This document shows, one piece after another, positions 4,090-35,453 of a DNA stretch of 35,637 bases. The notes beneath the pieces are model-generated. The model did no database searches and had not been told where the DNA came from. It saw only the letters and a list, made by a program, of their open reading frames with translations. Source of the stretch: Thiohalobacter sp. (lineage in GTDB: Bacteria; Pseudomonadota; Gammaproteobacteria; DSM-19610); the NCBI GenBank assembly GCA_026984515.1, contig JALSRZ010000160.1, forward strand, positions 1-35,637. The letters are read 5' to 3'. Every line of letters begins with the position of its first letter. Position 1 is the stretch's first letter. Made by a program: the position numbers and the translations under genes.

Positions 4090-5873
4090 CAGCTTCCTTT
4101 CTGTTTTACACCGGCGACCAGGTACAGACGCTGTATTTCATTTTGCAACACAGCCTTGCGGCTGGCATCCCGGGTAGCGTGCAGCAGGCTGGTGTAAATC
4201 TGCCGCGCGTCTTCCAGCAGGCCGGCTTCGACCAGCGCCTGTGCGGCATGGTAACGCGCGGTCTGCGCCCAGGGATCCATGGCGGTTACGTCGGTCAGGG
4301 TCGCCGACTTCAGGTACAGGTAGGCTGCCTGTTCATACTGTTCGAGCGCCTGCAGCGAATCGGCCATCCAGAACAGCAGTTCACGCCGTTGCTGCGGCTC
4401 CAGCGGCTTGTCCAGCAAGGCGGTGAACAGCTGCAGGGCCTGTCGGTGCGCCTGCAGGGTCTGCAGGTCGAACACTACCTGTAGCAGACGATCGGTGTTC
4501 TCTGGCGCCCGGTCCGCTGCCGGTGCGGCGAGCTGTTGCTCCAGGATCTTTACCCCGGCATCGACTTTGCCGGTAAATATCGCAACGCGCGCCCGGCGCA
4601 GGTTCCACGCAAAGCGATCGGCGCCGGCAGGCGGTTCCGCCAGCCCGTCCATCAGGCGCGACGCGGTATTCAGCTCACCGGCTTCCAGCGCTTCATCAAT
4701 CAGACGGTAGCGGATCACCGGTGGCAGGCGATCCACGTCGGCAAAGTGCCGGGACTCCAGGTACAGGCGCCGGACCAGCCGTTTGGCACCGGGCAGATCG
4801 TCCAGCATCCCGACCAGGTATTCGTGCGCCAGCGAACGGTGCCGGACGTCCGAACCGAACTCGGACAACACGGCAAACAGCACCCGGGCGCGCAGCGGGT
4901 CTTTCTCCACGGCTTCAGTGGCCGGAAAGTACCAGTCCTCGTCGTTGCCGAGCAGCTTCTGTTCGCGGTTCCCTATACGCTTTCCCTGTTGCAGCCAGGC
5001 ATCCCAGAGCTGGTCAGCATCGAGTACCAGCACGCCGTGCATCAGTTCCTGGTCAAAGGGAAGGGCAAGTGCGTGTTCCAGGTACTCGATCTGCCGCCGA
5101 GGCTGTCCGGCCTGCCCGGCCGCCCTGGCGGCCAGTCCCCAGAAGGCGCTTTGCAGCTGCGGGGTCGCCGCCTGCTGTGCCTGTCCGAGCGCCAGCTTCT
5201 CCACCTCGGCCGCCTGCTGCGGGCTCGCTTTCAGCTGTGCAGCATAACGCAGGAACCGGCCCTGCGGGGTCTCGTCCTGTTGCAACAGCCTGACCGCGGA
5301 GTCCGCATGCCCGCCCTGCAGCATCACGCGCGCACTCAGCCAGCGCCACTGCGGGTCTTCGTTGCCAAAATCCTGCCGGTAGCGTAACAGGGCCAGGCGC
5401 GCGTCTTCGATCTTTGCTTCCAGCAGGTAGCTGCGCACCACCAGGCGTCGCCAGCGGGCCAGGCTGCGCTTATCGGCCTCGGTGGCGTGCGACCACAGCA
5501 GCGTCCTGACGGTAGCCCGCGCGTCCTGCGCCTGCCCTGTGCGCAGCTGTGCGTCCGCTTTCAGGGACAGCGCCTGACGGTGAAAACGCGCATCGACACC
5601 GGCCGGCAGCCGCTTCACACGGTCGATCAGGCTGGCATCCAGTCCCTGGCTGGCCAGGATCTGCAACCGCTCCTGCTCCCAGGCGGTCCACTGCACAAGA
5701 TCCTGGTCCGCGGCCGGTTGTTCGGCATCCATACGCCGCAACGCCAGTTGCGGTGCACCCGCACGCGCCAGCTGCACCAGTTCCTGCAGGCCCGCACCAT
5801 CCAGCGCCCTTGCTATCGCCGGGAGAGAAAAAACCGTCGCCAGCACCAGGCACAGACCAATAAAAACGGGCAA
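4089..5873 (-). CDS. Exported TPR-like (alpha-solenoid) protein of unknown function
   Basis: The protein of about 594 residues starts with a hydrophobic signal-like segment (VFIGLCLVLATVF, then PAIARA as a likely cleavage region). Degenerate helical repeats rich in Ala, Leu, Arg and Gln follow through to the end, as in TPR solenoids. Such proteins usually scaffold periplasmic or envelope complexes; no specific role can be assigned. The start is uncertain. The frame is open back to an ATG at 6014, but that would overlap most of rplS. The first plausible start after the rplS terminator is a TTG at 5873, which lies inside the terminator stem; a GTG at 5846 is an alternative. The stop overlaps the ogt start. 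Confidence 0.75.
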   Translation of the reverse strand: MPVFIGLCLVLATVFSLPAIARALDGAGLQELVQLARAGAPQLALRRMDAEQPAADQDLVQWTAWEQERLQILASQGLDASLIDRVKRLPAGVDARFHRQALSLKADAQLRTGQAQDARATVRTLLWSHATEADKRSLARWRRLVVRSYLLEAKIEDARLALLRYRQDFGNEDPQWRWLSARVMLQGGHADSAVRLLQQDETPQGRFLRYAAQLKASPQQAAEVEKLALGQAQQAATPQLQSAFWGLAARAAGQAGQPRRQIEYLEHALALPFDQELMHGVLVLDADQLWDAWLQQGKRIGNREQKLLGNDEDWYFPATEAVEKDPLRARVLFAVLSEFGSDVRHRSLAHEYLVGMLDDLPGAKRLVRRLYLESRHFADVDRLPPVIRYRLIDEALEAGELNTASRLMDGLAEPPAGADRFAWNLRRARVAIFTGKVDAGVKILEQQLAAPAADRAPENTDRLLQVVFDLQTLQAHRQALQLFTALLDKPLEPQQRRELLFWMADSLQALEQYEQAAYLYLKSATLTDVTAMDPWAQTARYHAAQALVEAGLLEDARQIYTSLLHATRDASRKAVLQNEIQRLYLVAGVKQKGS

Positions 5874-11231: not shown

Positions 11232-11996
11232 TTATAGCGTGAAGCGCTCACCCCCGCACAAGCGGTGTACCGGCAGGCGGTCGATGCGACCACGGCACTG
11301 TTTGACGATGGTTTCCTCACTGCCCGGCTTGAGGTGTGTCAGGTACAGACGCGGCGTATGGTTGAGCTTTTTCAGGTCATCGGCCAGCAACTGCGGGCAA
11401 TAGTGCCGCGCCCTGGAACTCAGCTCTAGATCTTCGTCGGCAAAGGCGCTCTCCACGATCAACAGGTCCAGCTTGTCGTGGCGGTTCAGGGCCTCCCAGA
11501 AGCCATCGTTGCTGGTGGTATCCCCGCTGAATGCAAAACAGCCGACACCGTTCTGTACCCGGTAACCCGCCGCTGGTACGGCGTGGTTGACGGCAATCAT
11601 CTCGACGCGCCGGTTACCCACCTGGATCTGCTCGCCAGGGCCCATGACTTCAAAACGCAATACCGGTTGCTCCACACTGGGCAGCTGCGAGAAATCGGGC
11701 CAGATCTGCCAGTTGAAGATGTGTTCCCTGAGCACCCTGATCGTCTCTTCACGCGCATGCAGGACGACCGGTTCGCTCACCAGCTCGAAAATGGAATCGA
11801 GCAGCATGGGAATGCCGGCGATATGATCCAGGTGCGAGTGGGTGACGAAGATGTGCCGGATAGCCGCCATCTCTTCCAGGCTCAGTTCGGTAATCCCGGT
11901 GCCACCGTCGATCAGTATATCGTTGTCCACCAACAGGGACGTGGTACTCAGATCGGCACCGATCCCCCCGCTACAACCTAGTATCCTGAGTTCCAT
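11232..11996 (-). CDS. MBL-fold hydrolase, class II cyclic-nucleotide phosphodiesterase-like
   Basis: This 254-residue metallo-beta-lactamase-fold enzyme carries the metal-binding motif THSHLDHIAG (residues 52-61), a later metal-ligand region (FSGDTTSN) and a C-terminal YLTHLKPG. The N-terminal MELRILGCSGG and the HSHLDH form resemble class II 3',5'-cyclic-nucleotide phosphodiesterases more than RNase Z, but the substrate is inferred. I use the ATG at 11996 because MELRILGCSGG is the natural start of the fold; an in-frame start at 12053 would add 19 residues. The gene is 88 bp upstream of ffh on the same strand and divergent from ypjD. If it degrades cAMP it could link to carbon or stress control. 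Confidence 0.78.
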   Translation of the reverse strand: MELRILGCSGGIGADLSTTSLLVDNDILIDGGTGITELSLEEMAAIRHIFVTHSHLDHIAGIPMLLDSIFELVSEPVVLHAREETIRVLREHIFNWQIWPDFSQLPSVEQPVLRFEVMGPGEQIQVGNRRVEMIAVNHAVPAAGYRVQNGVGCFAFSGDTTSNDGFWEALNRHDKLDLLIVESAFADEDLELSSRARHYCPQLLADDLKKLNHTPRLYLTHLKPGSEETIVKQCRGRIDRLPVHRLCGGERFTL

Positions 11997-12204
11997 AAGT
12001 TCTACTCGTTTCGGTTCGTTTCCCTGCTCGATGCGAGGATCGTGCCAGCGCATTTCACAAAAAAAATGCAGGGCGCATCACAGTTCAGGCCCCGAAACCG
12101 CGCCTGTACAGGCTGCCGCCCCGGCACCTGACGCAACACGTCACCGGGCCTGACACGGGCAGGCAGTGCAGCCGGGCTTTTCGCCCACAGCTGCTTGTGC
12201 CATT

Positions 12205-13086: not shown

Positions 13087-14367
13087 TTGGACGACATCCC
13101 TCTCAGCGTGCTGTTTGGCACGCTTATTTTTCTGATTATCCTGTCCGCGTTCTTTTCCGGTTCCGAAACCGGCCTGATGACGCTCAACCGCTATCGCTTG
13201 CGCCACCTGGCGCGCACCCGGCACGCTGGCGCAAGACGTGCACAGAAACTGCTGGAACGGCCGGACCGCCTGATTGGCCTGATCCTGCTTGGCAACAACT
13301 TCGTCAACATCCTGGCCTCGTCGCTGACCACGGTGATCGCCCTGCGCCTGGGCGGCGAAACCGGCATCGCCATCGGCGCGGGCCTGCTGACGCTGGTGAT
13401 CCTGATTTTTGCCGAAGTCACACCCAAAACGCTCGCCGCCCTGCACCCGGAACGGGTCGCCTTTCCGGCCGCCTTCATCTACGGCCCGCTGCTGTGGATC
13501 CTTCACCCGCTGGTGTGGGTGGTGAATACCATCGCCAATGCGCTGCTGAAAGCGCTCGGTATCCGCCAGGAAGAGGGCTCCATCGACGCGCTCAGCCAGG
13601 AAGAACTGCGCACGGTGGTTCTGGAAGCCGGCGCCATGATCCCGAAACGCCACCAGGACATGCTGCTGAATATCATCGATCTGGAAAAAGTCACTGTGGA
13701 AGACATCATGGTACCGCGCAAGGAGATCACCGGCATCGACCTGGAAGACAGCTGGGACGCCATCGTGCGCCAGATCAGCAGCAGCCAGTACACCCGCCTG
13801 CCGGTCTACCGGGACGGTATCGACAACGTGATCGGCTTTGTGCATATTCGCAAGATCCTGCCACTGCTGATGGCCGACAAACTGGACCAGGAGACCCTGG
13901 AGAACCTGATCAAGGAACCCCTGTTCATCCCGGAAAACACACCGCTCAACCGCCAGCTGCTGAATTTCCAGCGCGAGCGCCGGCGCATCGGCCTGGTGGT
14001 CGACGAGTACGGTGATATCCAGGGACTGGCCACGCTGGAAGATATCCTGGAAGAAGTGGTCGGCGAATTCACCACCGATCCCTCGGCGGCCGGTCGCGAC
14101 TACACGCCGGAAGAAGACGGCAGTTACCTGGTCAACGGCAGCGCCAGCATACGCGAACTGAACCGTTCCCTGCACATGGAACTGCCCGTCGACGGACCCA
14201 AGACACTGAACGGGATGGTGCTCGAATACCTGGAAGATATCCCGCGGCCCGGCACCAGCCTGCTGCTGTCCGGCTACCCGGTGGATATCGTGAAAACCAA
14301 GGGCAACCTGGTCAAGACGCTGCGTGTGCATACCACCCAGCGGCGTCCTGTACCCTCACCGGAGTGA
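13087..14367 (+). CDS. CNNM/CorB-family membrane protein (DUF21-CBS-CorC)
   Basis: The 426-residue protein is of the YfjD/CorB type. It has an N-terminal DUF21 membrane domain (about 1-180, with [19 protein letters not shown] and [20 protein letters not shown]), a CBS pair (about 200-325, with [14 protein letters not shown]) and a C-terminal CorC/HlyC domain (about 335-415). CNNM proteins are linked to Mg2+ (and Co2+) efflux and homeostasis. The start is a TTG at 13087 preceded by GGAG at a somewhat long spacing. It lies between ypjD and msrB, and its stop is 7 bp from the msrB start, so the three probably form one transcript. Confidence 0.93.
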
Positions 14368-14374
14368 AGCGACT

Positions 14375-14773
14375 ATGGATGATAAGGTCAGCAAAAGCGA
14401 AGCGGAATGGCAGCAACAGCTCAGCCCGGAAGCGTTTGCAGTGACGCGCCGCAAGGGAACCGAACGTGCGTTCAGCGGGCGGTATCACGATTGTAAAACA
14501 GAAGGCATCTATCACTGCACCTGTTGCGATGCCCCCCTGTTCCGCTCGGACGAAAAATTTGATTCCGGCAGTGGCTGGCCCAGTTACTGGCAACCGCTGT
14601 CAGCAGCGGCCATCCATACGGAGGACGACCTGGACCACGGCATGAAACGCGTCGAAGTCCAGTGCGCCCGCTGCGGCGCGCACCTCGGCCACGTGTTCGA
14701 GGATGGCCCACCACCCACCGGACTGCGTTACTGTATAAATTCCATTTCCCTGAAACTCCGGGAAAAACCGTAG
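14375..14773 (+). CDS. msrB: Peptide-methionine (R)-S-oxide reductase
   Basis: MsrB reduces the R epimer of methionine sulfoxide in proteins. The 132-residue protein has the catalytic Cys in RYCINS (C120). Four zinc-binding cysteines are present (C48, C51, C97, C100, in YHCTCC and [12 protein letters not shown]), and the GSGWPSYW substrate-site motif is seen at 65-72. No signal peptide is seen, so it is cytoplasmic. The ATG at 14375 has GGAG upstream; an earlier start at 14324 would overlap the corB-type gene. It is the last gene of ypjD-corB-msrB. Confidence 0.97.
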
Positions 14774-14868: not shown

Positions 14869-15846
14869 ATGGCCAAACTTACACTGTCGTTCAAGGACCG
14901 TAAACTCAGGGTGATCACCCTGCAGGACGAGGATTGCCTGATCGGGCGGGAGTCGGGTTGCATGGTCGAAATCGACAGCCTGGCCATCGCGCCCAGGCAT
15001 GCCTGCATCCGCCGCGACGGTGCCAGCTTTGTGATTGAACCTGTCAGCGGCGATGCCGTGGTCGAAATCAACGGTCAGGCCATCGACACCGCCTGCACCC
15101 TCGGCGAGGGTGATCGCATCCAGGTCGGCAAGCACACACTGGTCTATTCGGAAACCGCTGACAGCACGGTAGCGGAACCCGCTCCCTCAGGCTCGGCACC
15201 CGCCGGCTGGATGCAGATCCAGAGTGGTTCACACCTGGGTCGCGTGATCCGGCTCGAAAAAGCCTTTACCCGGATCGGCAGGCCGGATGGCGAACTCGCG
15301 GTCATCGCCCGGCGTGAGGACGGTTACTACCTGTCGCACCTGCAGGGCGAACAGGCCACGGAACTCAATCAACAGGCCATCGACGACAATGCACACCGCC
15401 TGCAAAACGGTGACCGGATCCTGGTCGGCGAACTGCAGCTACAGTATTTTGTCGATGCCGCTGCCGTACAGGAATCCCCGGTCGAACCTGGCGAGCAAAG
15501 CGAGCAGCGGCAGTTCAGCCGCATCCCCTTCGATGTGCCGGTTACCCTGTCACTGGGAGAACAGCAATGGCATTCCGGCCTGATCGATGTCTCCCTGCAC
15601 GGTGCCCTGGTCAGGTCACCACCGGATTTTGAAGCCGACGCGCAACAGGACTACCGGCTTGCCATACACCTCGAAGGCGGGCCGGACATCCACATGGTCA
15701 TCCGGGTAGCACACCGGGATGACGAAGAACTCGGCCTGCAGTGCAAGGACATCGACGTCGACAGCATCACCCACCTGCGTCGCCTGGTGGAACTCAATCT
15801 CGGCGAACCGGAACTGCTGGAGCGGGAGCTGTCAGCACTGGGTTAA
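14869..15846 (+). CDS. FHA-FHA-PilZ fusion protein
   Basis: This 325-residue soluble protein combines three domains. FHA 1 (about 3-95) has GRE at 26-28, a shortened APRH in place of the usual SRxH, and INGQAI. FHA 2 (about 115-198) has IGRPDG at 136-141 and LNQQAI but lacks the SRxH loop, so its phosphothreonine binding is doubtful. A PilZ domain (about 212-315) has RQFSR (214-218) and DVSLHG (240-245), the RxxxR...DxSxxG signature for c-di-GMP binding. The PilZ part resembles the common stand-alone PilZ proteins. It could couple Ser/Thr phosphorylation with c-di-GMP; that is inference. The ATG at 14869 follows a strong purine-rich RBS (AGGGGGGACAG). It is convergent with radA. Confidence 0.88.
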   Translation: MAKLTLSFKDRKLRVITLQDEDCLIGRESGCMVEIDSLAIAPRHACIRRDGASFVIEPVSGDAVVEINGQAIDTACTLGEGDRIQVGKHTLVYSETADSTVAEPAPSGSAPAGWMQIQSGSHLGRVIRLEKAFTRIGRPDGELAVIARREDGYYLSHLQGEQATELNQQAIDDNAHRLQNGDRILVGELQLQYFVDAAAVQESPVEPGEQSEQRQFSRIPFDVPVTLSLGEQQWHSGLIDVSLHGALVRSPPDFEADAQQDYRLAIHLEGGPDIHMVIRVAHRDDEELGLQCKDIDVDSITHLRRLVELNLGEPELLERELSALG

Positions 15847-15881: not shown

Positions 15882-17279
15882 CTACGATTGCCTAAACCCG
15901 ACAGGCCCCTGGCCGGTGAACCACTCCAGTACATCGGTGTAACGCGTAACCGCGTGTATCTCCATGCCCTCTATACCGGCCTTGGGCGCATTGGCGGCAG
16001 GAATCAGCGCCCGCTGAAAACCCAGCTTGGCGGCTTCGCGCAGTCGTTCCTGACCGTTCGGGACCGGCCGGATTTCGCCGGCCAGCCCCACTTCACCGAA
16101 CACGACCAGGTTGTTCGGCAGCGCATGGTCACGGAAACTCGACAGCGCCGCCAGCAGCACCGGCAAATCCGCCGCGGTCTCACTGATGCGTACACCGCCG
16201 ACCACGTTTACGAATACATCCTGGTCACTCATCTGCACGCCACCGTGACGGTGCTGCACGGCCAGCAGCATGGCCAGCCGGTTCTGTTCGGGACCCAGGG
16301 AAACCCGGCGCGGGTTGGCCAGCTGGCTGTCATCGACCAGCGCCTGCACTTCCAGCAGCAGGGGACGCGTCCCCTCCATGGTGACCATGATGACGCTGCC
16401 GGCCACCGGTTGTTCGTGGCGTGACAGGAAGATCGAGGAAGGATTATGGATTTCCTTCAGGCCCTTGTCCGTCATCGCAAACACGCCCAGTTCGTTCACG
16501 GCACCGAAGCGATTCTTGACGGCGCGCACGATGCGGTAGCGTCCACCGGCGTCGCCTTCGAAATACAGCACGGTATCGACCATGTGTTCCAGCACGCGCG
16601 GTCCGGCCAGGGTGCCTTCCTTGGTCACGTGCCCGACCAGCAACAGCGCGGTCCCGGTCTGTTTGGCAAAACGCACCAGTTGTGCCGCGCTCTCGCGCAC
16701 CTGGCTGACCGAACCGGGTGCCGACTGCAACACCTCGGTGTACAGGGTCTGGATGGAATCGATCACCATGATCTGCGGCGTCTCCCGGCGCGCGTGTTCC
16801 AGCACCCGCTGCACTGAGGTCTCCGCGAGCAGGCACACCTGGTCGGCATCGACGCCCAGCCGCCGTGAACGCAGCGCCACCTGTTCGGGGGATTCTTCGC
16901 CGCTGACATACAGCACTTTCAGCCGCGCAGAGAAGGCCGCCAGCGCCTGCAACAGCAAGGTCGATTTACCAATGCCTGGATCACCGCCGATCAGTACCAC
17001 GGAACCCGCCACCAGGCCACCGCCCAGCACCCGGTCAAATTCTTCCATACCCACCGGGATACGGGTTTCCTGCCCGGGCTGCACCTCGCCCAGCCGCTGC
17101 ACTTCCGGTTGTGTGGTACCGGCATAACCGGCGAAACGGGCCGTCTTGGCGCCGGCCGGTACTACCGACAGGGATTCAACCAGGGTATTCCAGGCACCGC
17201 AATCGGCGCACTGCCCTGCCCATTTGCGGGACTGGGCACCGCAGTCACTGCACTGGTACATCACACTGGATTTGGCCAT
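15882..17279 (-). CDS. radA: DNA repair protein RadA (Sms)
   Basis: RadA is a RecA-like, DnaB-type branch-migration helicase that acts in recombinational repair. The 465-residue protein has an N-terminal zinc finger (C10, C13, C24, C27), Walker A GGDPGIGKST at 98-107, Walker B (IMVIDS), the RadA-specific KNRFG at 255-259 and a C-terminal Lon-protease-like domain. It starts 28 bp after the alr stop codon, ending the rpsF...dnaB-alr-radA run. It is convergent with the FHA-PilZ gene. Confidence 0.98.
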   Translation of the reverse strand: MAKSSVMYQCSDCGAQSRKWAGQCADCGAWNTLVESLSVVPAGAKTARFAGYAGTTQPEVQRLGEVQPGQETRIPVGMEEFDRVLGGGLVAGSVVLIGGDPGIGKSTLLLQALAAFSARLKVLYVSGEESPEQVALRSRRLGVDADQVCLLAETSVQRVLEHARRETPQIMVIDSIQTLYTEVLQSAPGSVSQVRESAAQLVRFAKQTGTALLLVGHVTKEGTLAGPRVLEHMVDTVLYFEGDAGGRYRIVRAVKNRFGAVNELGVFAMTDKGLKEIHNPSSIFLSRHEQPVAGSVIMVTMEGTRPLLLEVQALVDDSQLANPRRVSLGPEQNRLAMLLAVQHRHGGVQMSDQDVFVNVVGGVRISETAADLPVLLAALSSFRDHALPNNLVVFGEVGLAGEIRPVPNGQERLREAAKLGFQRALIPAANAPKAGIEGMEIHAVTRYTDVLEWFTGQGPVGFRQS

Positions 17280-29630: not shown

Positions 29631-31355
29631 TTACTGGTTATAGGCCTCATGGATGTGCATCACCATGCGCGGATCGACCGTCTCGATATCACCCGGGCCG
29701 ATGTTCGGGTTGGAAACCGCACCACCACGATTGACCCAGTCAAACTGCGCAATCGGCATCGCACAACCGGTGTTACCGGCCGGGTCATTCGGGTCTCCGT
29801 TACAGCGCCCGCTGCCGTCACCCGCCAGCGGTCCACCGTCCTGGTGGGCCTTGTCGATGAGGTATTCGTACACCGTGCCGCCCGGCACAAAACACTGGTT
29901 GGCCGGGTGGCCGGGGCCGGGCTGACCATCCCCGTCCTTGTCACAGCCGGCATTACCGGCCGATACACCGACATACAGGGTCTCGACATCACAGGCATCC
30001 AGGTCGGGCCGCACGCCGGTGACCGGGTCTTTGGGGTTGATGTAATCACAACCGGGACCAGAGATACGGTTGATGCTCACGCCGGCAATGATATTCACAC
30101 CGGGATCGAGGGCAAGCGTACCGGTGCGGTGATTTTCGCCGGGATCCACCACAAAGATATGCTGGCGAAAGACACCGGGATTACAGGCCGGTCCGGGACC
30201 CTGCGGCGATGCACCGGGAGCCTCGCCCCGCACACAGTCACGCGAACGGCTGCGACGGGTACCGAACAGGCTGCCGTCCTCGGACATGCGGATTGCACGC
30301 AGGTTGTCACGACGCTTCGGTGAATTGAAATACGGCGCGTCGTAATAGTTCAACGGGCTGGATGTATCCCCAGTGCCGTCGTTGGAAAGGTCGATTACCC
30401 GGATCACCCTGGCTTCGTTCTTCTCCTTGTCCAGCTTGAGCGACCTGCCGTGCCTGAACGGCTTGTTGGAACCGACGCCACGACTGTGTTTGTCAATGCC
30501 TGCCTTCCAGTCGACCACGAATACCGCGTCACCGTGGAACATGCTGATGAAAAGGCCTTCGTCGTTGACCAGCACGCCGGCAGGACAGTTCCAGCGGGGA
30601 TCATTGGCATAGGGCAGATCGTCGTCCCTGGGCATGCTGTACTCGTCGATGGCTTCCATGGTGTTCTGGTCAATGATGAGTACACGGCCATTGGCACCCC
30701 GCTCCGGGGTGCTGTACACCGGGGGAAAGTACATCCAGGACGAGTTATCCGGTCGCGGGTTGCCGGTCGCCGGGTCAATTGCACTCTCGCCCGGTCCGAA
30801 GGGAGTGGAGTTGTTGGCATTGAAGAAATTGGCGTCACACACCGTCTGCGCAATATTGCCGTTGGGCATGAAACCGTTGCCGAGTATGCGGGGCACATAG
30901 CCGAAGTTGCCGCCATGCGGGGACGGTGAAGTCGGCCAGACCGGGCTGGTCTTGATGGCCGTGCCGTCCCGGTGGTGCTCGATCAGCGCGTGCTGGGCAG
31001 CGCTGGTCAGGTAGGCATGGCCGTTCTCGCCACCGGAGGTATTACCGGTAGGTTTCCACGGGCTGCCTGCTGCGCAGGACACGTGTTCGGGACAGATATC
31101 TGTACCGATATTCGCGGGTGTAAAAGGATTGCTGACCGTAATACCTCGCTCGCCGGTGGTGGTGTTCATTTCCAGTAAACGCCCCGGACCGGGGATATTG
31201 GAGAAGGGGGCATTCTGGGAATCGGCCATCATGATATTGGACTCCAGGCAAACCGGTGTGCCGGCGGCTGAATTGCCTGAATGTGCAACCGCGTTGCCGA
31301 CAGGCATTGACATGCCCACCGCCAGCGCGGTCACCGTTAGCTTGTATCTGTTCAT
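29631..31355 (-). CDS. Secreted Cys-rich, possibly beta-propeller protein of unknown function
   Basis: This 574-residue protein has a Sec signal peptide (MNRYKLTVTALAVGMSMPVG, cleavage near AVA-HSG). The mature part has many cysteines (motifs such as TVCDANF, RWNCPAGVL, GPACNPGVF, DACDVET), suggesting disulfides, and is rich in Gly, Asn, Asp and Pro. Strand-like segments such as GRVLIIDQNTMEAIDEY and VFVVDWKAG look like beta-propeller blades. CDKDGDGQPG resembles a calcium-binding loop (DxDxDG). I do not recognise the family. It may be periplasmic or extracellular. A dyad-symmetric site lies about 93-125 bp upstream, and a DsbA-like folding route would be expected for export. Confidence 0.8.
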   Translation of the reverse strand: MNRYKLTVTALAVGMSMPVGNAVAHSGNSAAGTPVCLESNIMMADSQNAPFSNIPGPGRLLEMNTTTGERGITVSNPFTPANIGTDICPEHVSCAAGSPWKPTGNTSGGENGHAYLTSAAQHALIEHHRDGTAIKTSPVWPTSPSPHGGNFGYVPRILGNGFMPNGNIAQTVCDANFFNANNSTPFGPGESAIDPATGNPRPDNSSWMYFPPVYSTPERGANGRVLIIDQNTMEAIDEYSMPRDDDLPYANDPRWNCPAGVLVNDEGLFISMFHGDAVFVVDWKAGIDKHSRGVGSNKPFRHGRSLKLDKEKNEARVIRVIDLSNDGTGDTSSPLNYYDAPYFNSPKRRDNLRAIRMSEDGSLFGTRRSRSRDCVRGEAPGASPQGPGPACNPGVFRQHIFVVDPGENHRTGTLALDPGVNIIAGVSINRISGPGCDYINPKDPVTGVRPDLDACDVETLYVGVSAGNAGCDKDGDGQPGPGHPANQCFVPGGTVYEYLIDKAHQDGGPLAGDGSGRCNGDPNDPAGNTGCAMPIAQFDWVNRGGAVSNPNIGPGDIETVDPRMVMHIHEAYNQ

Positions 31356-33638: not shown

Positions 33639-35078
33639 TCAGTGCGGCCGCTCGATCAGCATCGGCCGGACGCTTGCCAGCAACCGCTTTGCCCGCGACA
33701 TGGTAACCGGGTACCGGGCCAGGCGCCGGGCTTTTTTCAGCACCGGGATCGCGTCACTGTAGTGCAGATTGCCGCCCTGCAACACTTCCAGCGCATCGTC
33801 GATTTCCGAGACGGCTATGCGCAGGTTGGTTTTCCGGTCGCGGCGTTTATAAATCTGTTCGGCCTGTCCGATCAGGGTGATGGCCGAGCGCACGTTTTCA
33901 TCGGCATTCAACACACGCAGGAAGGCACCGACATTGGCGACCTGCGCGCCATTCAGCCCGACAATCGGCGGCAATACCTGGCCATTGCGCAGGTGTCGCT
34001 GCGAGGAGTAGAACGCCACCAGGCCTTCGACGGTGTCGATCTGGTTGGCGTGAAAAAACGGCCCGCTGTCGGCGGCCTCGATCACTGTCGGCACGTTAAA
34101 CAGGCTGGTTCCATGCCCGAAACCGTCGTCAAACGGGTTACCGCTGCTGTCGATAACATCGCCCGGCTGATCGACCAGTTCCTCCACGCGCGGCGCAAAG
34201 GAGCGGTTGCTGAGTTCAAAGGCCGGCGGCGTAACGGTCGCGGGGAAATCAAAATTCGGGTCGGTATTGGCGCCACCATTGAAATGGCAGGCATTGCAGT
34301 TCAGTGTTCCGGCAACGCCAACCCCCAGGTAATTGAGACGACCACGCTCGGCGCGCGGGTCCTTCATGTGGATGGTATGAAAATCATCGTACTCTTCCTG
34401 CCGGCCCAGCGACAGCATGTAGGCTTCCAGTGCGTCGAGTTCGTAGTCCGTAGGCAGGCGGAAATCGACGCCGGGCTCCCGGTGCAGGCTTTTCGTCAGG
34501 TGCTGAATAATCGCGCCGAGCGAAAAATCACGCAGCGTGCCATGCGGCGCCAACGGGGCATCGGGGGCAACCGGCGCACCGTCACCGCTCCAGCCGGTGC
34601 GCTGGTCGGGTGGCAGGGTAGTGCCGTCATTACCACCGGTCGGGGCAAGCAGCGACACACGCAGGGCATTCAGGTGCGGTACGCTGCGCATGGTGAAATC
34701 GGTCTCCGGCGCAGCGAAACCGTTGGTGTTCTCCTTGATCAGACCGGCTCCACGCATCAACCGGGGGTTTTCAAAATGCTCGGACAGGGGATTGGGTTCC
34801 GGGCGCTCGGCAACGAACAGGGGGTCATCGGCCGGCAGCGTGGCGATAAACTTCGGGTCGATCGTGAAGTTGTTGGTCGCGGGGTGGCAGGTACCGCAGG
34901 TACGGCCGTTGCCGTCAAAGGTTTCGTTAAAAAAAATCCTGCGTCCGGCATTGACCAGCGCAGCATTGGGTGCGCCTGGCGGCAGTATGCCGGTTGCCAG
35001 TGCAGTCAGCGGGGAGAATAGCAAACAGGCCGAGCCGGCTGTCAGCGCAATGAGATAATTCCGGCAGTAGTGAAGCAT
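33639..35078 (-). CDS. Di-heme cytochrome c, peroxidase/MauG-like superfamily
   Basis: This 479-residue periplasmic protein has a Sec signal (ALTAGSACLLFSPLTALA) and two c-type heme motifs: CGTCH (61-65) and CNACH (261-265). The spacing of about 200 residues and the RRIFFNETFDGNGRTCGTCH start are those of bacterial di-heme cytochrome c peroxidase/MauG-type proteins. The region between them (SVPHLNAL, GWSGDG) also fits. It may reduce peroxide or oxidise a partner protein; no partner is proven. The ATG at 35078 gives a correct signal peptide; an in-frame start at 35168 does not. Cytochrome c maturation genes are not in the window, although ypjD is a distant CcsA relative. Confidence 0.9.
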   Translation of the reverse strand: MLHYCRNYLIALTAGSACLLFSPLTALATGILPPGAPNAALVNAGRRIFFNETFDGNGRTCGTCHPATNNFTIDPKFIATLPADDPLFVAERPEPNPLSEHFENPRLMRGAGLIKENTNGFAAPETDFTMRSVPHLNALRVSLLAPTGGNDGTTLPPDQRTGWSGDGAPVAPDAPLAPHGTLRDFSLGAIIQHLTKSLHREPGVDFRLPTDYELDALEAYMLSLGRQEEYDDFHTIHMKDPRAERGRLNYLGVGVAGTLNCNACHFNGGANTDPNFDFPATVTPPAFELSNRSFAPRVEELVDQPGDVIDSSGNPFDDGFGHGTSLFNVPTVIEAADSGPFFHANQIDTVEGLVAFYSSQRHLRNGQVLPPIVGLNGAQVANVGAFLRVLNADENVRSAITLIGQAEQIYKRRDRKTNLRIAVSEIDDALEVLQGGNLHYSDAIPVLKKARRLARYPVTMSRAKRLLASVRPMLIERPH

Positions 35079-35269
35079 GGCTGGACCTTTATCAGTAGTT
35101 GTAGTTATGGAGCTGCGGCATCCTGCCATCCCTGCACCAAAAATAGCCGCGATGGGGGCCACGCGCAATGGCGATTACCCTTTGGTAGACCTTCGTATAG
35201 CGGAAAACCCTGGCCGGCCTGCCGAAACAGGGACTTGCGTTCGGTCACCGGAAGCCGGACCAGGTCCGG

Positions 35270-35453
35270 CTAGCCCGCATTTCTCACCGGGTTCCGTAGC
35301 GAGGCGGTGGCAGGTCGTGTGATAAGCGGCGTTCGCGACCGAGGGCCGCGCAGGCATAGTCGACACGATGTCGAGCAGCCCGACCGGGTGAACGCCGCTA
35401 AGCGCGCGGCATGACGCCGCCGCAGCAGGAAGTCGGTGAGAAATGCGGGCTAG
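35270..35453. mobile_element. Complete MITE-like element, copy B
   Basis: The terminal inverted repeats CTAGCCCGCATTTCTCACCG are at 35270-35289 and (as complement) 35434-35453. CTAG at each outer end can be read as a 4-bp YTAR target duplication, as for IS5-type elements. The body of about 176 bp has no transposase frame. It is nearly identical to copy A at 1-124 in opposite orientation. It separates the di-heme cytochrome upstream region (35079-35269, nothing recognised) from the partial gene at the window edge, and it contains the stop codon of that gene. Confidence 0.85.

Follow-up and report, generated by a model that had tools for sequence, protein, structure and literature searches.

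The gene at positions 14869 to 15846 of the window (the whole stretch of DNA analysed, 35,637 nucleotides) is the local mapZ orthologue, joined in frame to an FHA-FHA gene that neighbours mapZ in other gammaproteobacterial families. We read its product as a c-di-GMP-dependent inhibitor of CheR1 with a repurposed, predicted phospho-independent docking module, and put the probability of this reading as a whole at roughly 0.55. The features concerned are:

13087-14367, forward strand: corB-like gene (CNNM/CorC-related), a conserved neighbour (NCBIfam PRK11573, 519 bits, above cut-off)
14324-14773, forward strand: msrB, directly upstream (NCBIfam TIGR00357, 183 bits, above cut-off)
14869-15846, forward strand: FHA-FHA-PilZ fusion gene, 325 amino acids (ORF, Pfam and AlphaFold2)
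14869-15156, forward strand: FHA1, about residues 1-96
14947-14949, forward strand: R27, the single pocket residue retained in FHA1
14989-14991, forward strand: A41, where an intact pocket has Ser (APRH instead of SRxH), aligned to the GarA Ser
15052-15057, forward strand: D62-A63, where an intact pocket has Thr-Asn
15196-15456, forward strand: FHA2 (roughly residues 110-196), which has no ligand loop
15502-15792, forward strand: PilZ domain, residues 212-308, with R214, R218, D240, S242 and G245
15757-15840, forward strand: MapZ-type C-terminal helices, residues 297-324 (model helices 297-311 and 314-324)
15882-17279, reverse strand: radA, convergent, directly downstream (NCBIfam TIGR00416, 633 bits)

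A sequence-only reading had described an FHA-FHA-PilZ fusion at this position, and the architecture is real. The ORF starts with ATG, its coordinates are exact on re-reading, and profile searches uphold both domain calls. Pfam PilZ scores 68.9 bits against a cut-off of 22.5; Pfam FHA scores 59.4 bits over two stretches of the 325-residue protein, and FHA1 and FHA2, searched separately as slices, score 40.5 and 24.0 bits against a cut-off of 20.7. An AlphaFold2 model of the full protein (77 rows) has a mean pLDDT of 89.9 but a pTM of 0.48, which means that the domains are well modelled and their mutual arrangement is not. FHA1 of the model matches EmbR and GarA with Z of about 17. The rows listed for the full-length structural comparison belonged to FHA1 and MapZ, so FHA2 was modelled and compared by itself (pLDDT 93.1); its best match is GarA, with Z 13.4 and rmsd 1.7 over 82 residues. 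Both N-terminal domains thus have the FHA fold by Pfam slices and by structural comparison.

Beyond what the sequence-only reading had proposed, the PilZ part is MapZ, a protein whose known partner is CheR1, and the gene product fuses genes that are neighbours in other families. By sequence comparison, PilZ plus the C-terminal part is an orthologue of MapZ (PA4608) of Pseudomonas aeruginosa. Residues 209-324, a stretch that takes in the helix following the PilZ barrel, match PA4608 in phmmer with E 7.1e-26, and PilZ plus C-terminal helix is 48-50% identical to MapZ. The top Foldseek match is MapZ from the CheR1 complex (49% identical), and the closest structures are the MapZ chains of CheR1 complexes 5xly and 5y4r, with Z 19.4 and rmsd 1.4-1.6 over 115-116 residues (5xly_B: Z 19.4, rmsd 1.4 over 116 residues). 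All the ligand residues that the earlier reading had reported are present, namely R214 and R218 of RxxxR and D240, S242 and G245 of DxSxxG. Among the matches listed, R214, R218, D240 and G245 are invariant, and S242 reaches at least 95%, in 125 sequences (23 fused, 20 adjacent, 82 mapZ-only). No statement on the residues of the MapZ-CheR1 interface was found in the accessible part of PMC6370697.

The window's genome contains four CheR matches. The one on contig C14 scores 296 bits against P. aeruginosa CheR1, the other three 165, 114 and 94, and its gene is surrounded by flagellar rod and hook genes, flgA, flgN and a PilZN-PilZ (YcgR-like) gene. With the C14 protein as query, 110 of 370 genomes of the class fall below E 1e-65, a cut-off for CheR1-type proteins that was set after seeing best scores fall from 222 to 203 bits. 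Among the matches listed, a CheR1-type CheR is found in 90 of 113 genomes with mapZ versus 20 of 257 others (Fisher p 6e-44, kinship ignored), and, when only CheR-bearing genomes are counted, in 90 of 108 with mapZ versus 20 of 117 without (p 1e-24, kinship ignored). By state of the locus, again among the matches listed, the fractions are 9/11 for fused, 14/20 for adjacent and 67/82 for mapZ-only. Genomes G016 (the window's genus, 99% complete) and G328 hold the fusion without a CheR1-type CheR by this cut-off. Such genomes would fit a PilZ part that binds c-di-GMP and acts on some target other than CheR1, picked by the FHA pair, and the accessible part of a 2025 review describes quite different partners for further P. 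aeruginosa PilZ proteins (PMC12564702). We consider this unlikely, however, given the CheR1-type CheR in the window's genome and in the nine fused genomes counted above, and a MapZ C-terminal part that is as conserved in fusions as in mapZ-only proteins.

The usual gene order at these loci is ccs-corB-[FHA-FHA]-[mapZ]-radA-alr-dnaB. The gap between the end of the fusion gene and convergent radA is 35 bp in the window, and radA lies within 400 bp at 32 of 82 mapZ-only loci among the matches listed; in P. aeruginosa, PA4608 adjoins radA (PA4609) as well. Elsewhere in the window, the gene at 11232-12053 (reverse strand) encodes a protein with a metallo-beta-lactamase fold and, in addition, a match to cAMP phosphodiesterase class II (PDEase_II, 44 bits); it could be an enzyme of cyclic-nucleotide metabolism close to the locus. 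Genes at 29631-31355 and 33639-35168 (both reverse strand) encode proteins of 574 and 509 amino acids with no Pfam match at 1e-5; the second contains CGTCH and CNACH, haem c-type motifs by eye. An inverted repeat of 124 nt, 98% complementary, occupies 1-124 and 35271-35394, near both ends of the window.

Within the order, matches to the fusion occur in 18 of 20 genomes, and in 11 of the 11 good ones (at least 90% complete, at most 5% contaminated), so the fusion is not a product of chance. Sixteen cover essentially the whole protein, one is without FHA1 where the DNA reads N, and one is cut by a contig end. Gammaproteobacteria bacterium isolate HyVt-581 is the one named relative confirmed, 88% identical; in a phylum sample of 299 genomes, a full-length match was found only in the window's own.

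For the class, an even set of 370 genomes was used, with 120 loci taken from the matches listed and own-family loci added. Fused genes occur in at least 11 of the 370 genomes. Ten have both FHA domains and come from three families, and the other (locus L164 of G090, 4660-5313) is a 217-residue form with FHA2 and PilZ only and the same neighbours, perhaps a fusion that lost FHA1. An FHA-FHA gene stands directly upstream of mapZ, on the same strand, in at least 20 of 370 genomes representing 12 families, the longest ORFs overlapping by up to 105 bp or standing up to 84 bp apart. At least 82 of 370 genomes carry mapZ and gave no sign of an FHA gene next to it, where adjacent and alone were decided by tblastn at 1e-4 and longest ORFs, a procedure that a divergent FHA, or one past a contig end, can escape. 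Among the matches listed in the class sample, 11 loci are FHA-FHA-only (8 of them beside corB) and one has neither match; one genome (G210) is counted in two locus classes. The locus of G109 (L177), without a tblastn match, turned out to be kinase-linked.

On the FHA-FHA tree, which omits L016, L025 and L164, the fused state takes two changes, and the AU test does not reject a single origin (p 0.41). A RadA tree built quickly from 66 rows again gives two changes. These counts do not separate fusion from splitting; since the fused group is narrow and many split families surround it, fusion is the likelier.

The FHA pair departs from what its domain name would suggest. FHA1 has GRE at 26-28 and APRH in place of SRxH at 41-44, and in FHA2 the next strand comes directly after GRP and a short turn, leaving no ligand loop; the sequence-only reading had correctly named GRE and APRH in FHA1 and the missing loop of FHA2. 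Pocket positions were placed at 27 (Arg), 41 (Ser), 62 (Thr) and 63 (Asn) by alignment to GarA and ten paralogues, FHA-FHA proteins found outside the locus. The Ser, at position 41 of FHA1, we take to have a role in phosphothreonine binding. FHA1 of the window retains R27, and A41, D62 and A63 differ from the pocket residues. Among the matches listed, Arg, Ser and Asn occur together in 0 of 50 locus-type FHA1 domains versus 10 of 10 paralogues, a paralogue count that would read 10 of 11 had G160 not been reassigned to the locus type after its sequence was seen, while the 50 omit L025 (FHA1 reads N) and L164 (no FHA1). Taken singly in the same listed matches, Arg is present in 37 of the 50, Ser or Thr at 41 in 4, Ser or Thr at 62 in 5 and Asn at 63 in 4; for Arg, for Ser or Thr at 41 and for Asn, the count in the others is 10 of 10. 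Among the matches listed, every fused sequence with a readable position has R27 (22/22), and Arg persists there in 12 of the 20 adjacent and 3 of the 8 FHA-only proteins of the locus.

The ten paralogues form a separate branch, parting from the locus type at 100/98. Eight have a kinase within about 5 kb, recognized by the Pkinase profile in G074, G126, G036, G375, G132 and G109 and by motif pattern only in G125 and G032; PP2C lies beside four by Pfam (G132, G109, G125 and G032), and no kinase was seen near the paralogues of G146 and G202. Both FHA-FHA types occur together in G036, G125, G126 and G375. At L176, L177, L198 and L199 (also L174 and L194-L196), in gammaproteobacterial genomes, kinase, PP2C and FHA-FHA genes are clustered and the FHA1 pockets are intact. 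Such a cluster is likely to be a phosphothreonine module, and it holds the closest relatives of the FHA pair found in the window. The window gene itself belongs to the other branch of the tree and has msrB and radA for neighbours.

Locus-type proteins share residues of their own at positions where the commonest paralogue letter differs: C31 (88%), S37 (86%) and P42 (86%) in FHA1, and W114 (82%), Q116 (100%) and L158 (100%) in FHA2. D36, L38 and A39, at 92-98% in the locus type, are less telling since 4 to 6 of the 10 paralogues have them too. The FHA2 loop, for which 47 of the 48 FHA2 slices found were aligned, is absent from both types, so its loss is probably older.

These residues bear on the proposal, made from the sequence alone, that the protein joins phosphothreonine and c-di-GMP signalling, which they do not support; the companion suggestion that the FHA units may have turned into protein-binding or structural modules is supported by the 0/50 versus 10/10 pocket count. 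A true integrator, with FHA1 reading phosphothreonine made by one of the genome's Hanks kinases and PilZ reading c-di-GMP, would fit the retention of R27 in the fused forms. For the Bdellovibrio protein DgcB, the accessible part of PMC6733907 describes hydrogen bonds from R61, T96 and N97 to the peptide and credits R61, K72 and R76 with recognizing phosphothreonine. On that basis, losing only the pocket Ser would not put an end to recognition. The Ser and Asn positions are both lost, however, Arg persists in only part of the adjacent and FHA-only forms, and FHA2 is without its loop. The contig of the window (C160) has no Pkinase and no GGDEF match, in keeping with the earlier remark that no kinase or diguanylate cyclase is adjacent; the rest of the genome has four Pkinase matches, a further point for an integrator, and 35 GGDEF matches. 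With all this weighed, we regard the integrator as quite improbable. Kinase co-occurrence was dropped as a test of the phosphothreonine reading, Pkinase being found in 330 of 370 class genomes and therefore giving no discrimination. With its 35 GGDEF and 13 PilZ matches, the 3.4-Mb genome has a large c-di-GMP network.

Lost pocket residues, and genes that already adjoin in other families, could also mean that a stop between two neighbours simply disappeared and that a decaying FHA pair adds nothing to the MapZ part. Yet the fusion is retained across the order and in two further families (among the matches listed), and the conservation of C31, S37, P42, Q116 and L158, mostly absent from paralogues, argues against decay. 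We hold such a passive by-product to be very unlikely.

Under the preferred reading, a CheR1 inhibitor with a docking module, the PilZ and C-terminal part, once loaded with c-di-GMP, would most likely bind the CheR1-type methyltransferase and lower chemoreceptor methylation as MapZ does; this prediction draws on orthology, on ligand residues that are intact and on the co-occurrence of mapZ and CheR1-type CheR. The FHA pair belongs to a family whose other branch mostly adjoins Hanks kinase and PP2C genes. Since FHA1 has lost residues of the phosphothreonine pocket and has a different set in common across the locus type, it would most likely dock the MapZ part onto a protein partner with no need of phosphorylation. 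FHA docking without phosphothreonine is described for Afadin with Scribble in the accessible part of PMC9355967. Several observations count against this reading. Two of 11 fused and 6 of 20 adjacent genomes are without a CheR1-type CheR, among the matches listed. Eight loci (L154, L156, L157 and L169-L173) have a locus-type FHA-FHA gene beside corB with no mapZ beside it, which shows that the pair also serves some purpose apart from MapZ, and four of these eight genomes are without a CheR1-type CheR (among the matches listed). The universal R27 of readable fused sequences makes some phosphate affinity possible. As to history, we suggest tentatively, at slightly less than even odds, that the double FHA left a kinase/phosphatase setting, became a phospho-independent docking module, stayed next to mapZ in 12 or more families of the Gammaproteobacteria, and was later fused to it.

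MapZ links c-di-GMP to chemotactic adaptation. Adjacency across families, together with fusion, suggests that this link has a second component, the FHA-FHA protein, one absent from the Pseudomonas protein. If the docking module arose as suggested above, it would direct MapZ action on receptor methylation to a particular partner or site, something that studies of the stand-alone P. aeruginosa protein had no means of revealing. The family also supplies FHA domains that seemingly no longer read phosphothreonine; in at least four cases the genome also holds an intact paralogue, which can serve as internal control.

In the PMC literature searched, neither an FHA-PilZ protein nor an FHA-FHA/mapZ gene pair was seen to be described. 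The accessible part of the 2025 review names MapZ without mention of FHA (PMC12564702), and a Microcystis FHA-GGDEF-EAL protein is described in literature accessible in part. DgcB, an FHA-GGDEF protein, resembles the window protein in having FHA within a c-di-GMP protein, but, as the accessible part of PMC6733907 describes it, DgcB makes c-di-GMP and its FHA reads phosphothreonine, whereas the window protein is a PilZ receptor with a degraded pocket.

GarA and OdhI, single-FHA regulators of 2-oxoglutarate dehydrogenase, use the FHA fold as a protein-docking surface, as is predicted for the window protein, and both FHA domains resemble them closely in structure; in our alignment GarA has its pocket residues intact, and it has neither a PilZ nor a second FHA domain. 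The kinase/PP2C-linked double-FHA proteins (such as those of L176, L177, L198 and L199) share the two-domain layout, related sequence and an FHA2 without loop, but they keep the R-S-T-N pocket, mostly have kinase genes for neighbours, are without PilZ and make up a branch apart. MapZ of P. aeruginosa corresponds in PilZ plus C-terminal helix, ligand residues, fold, radA neighbour and a CheR1-type CheR in the genome. The stand-alone single-domain form that is typical of MapZ, though not defining, sets it apart: PA4608 is free-standing without FHA domains, whereas the window protein has two of them fused at its N-terminus.
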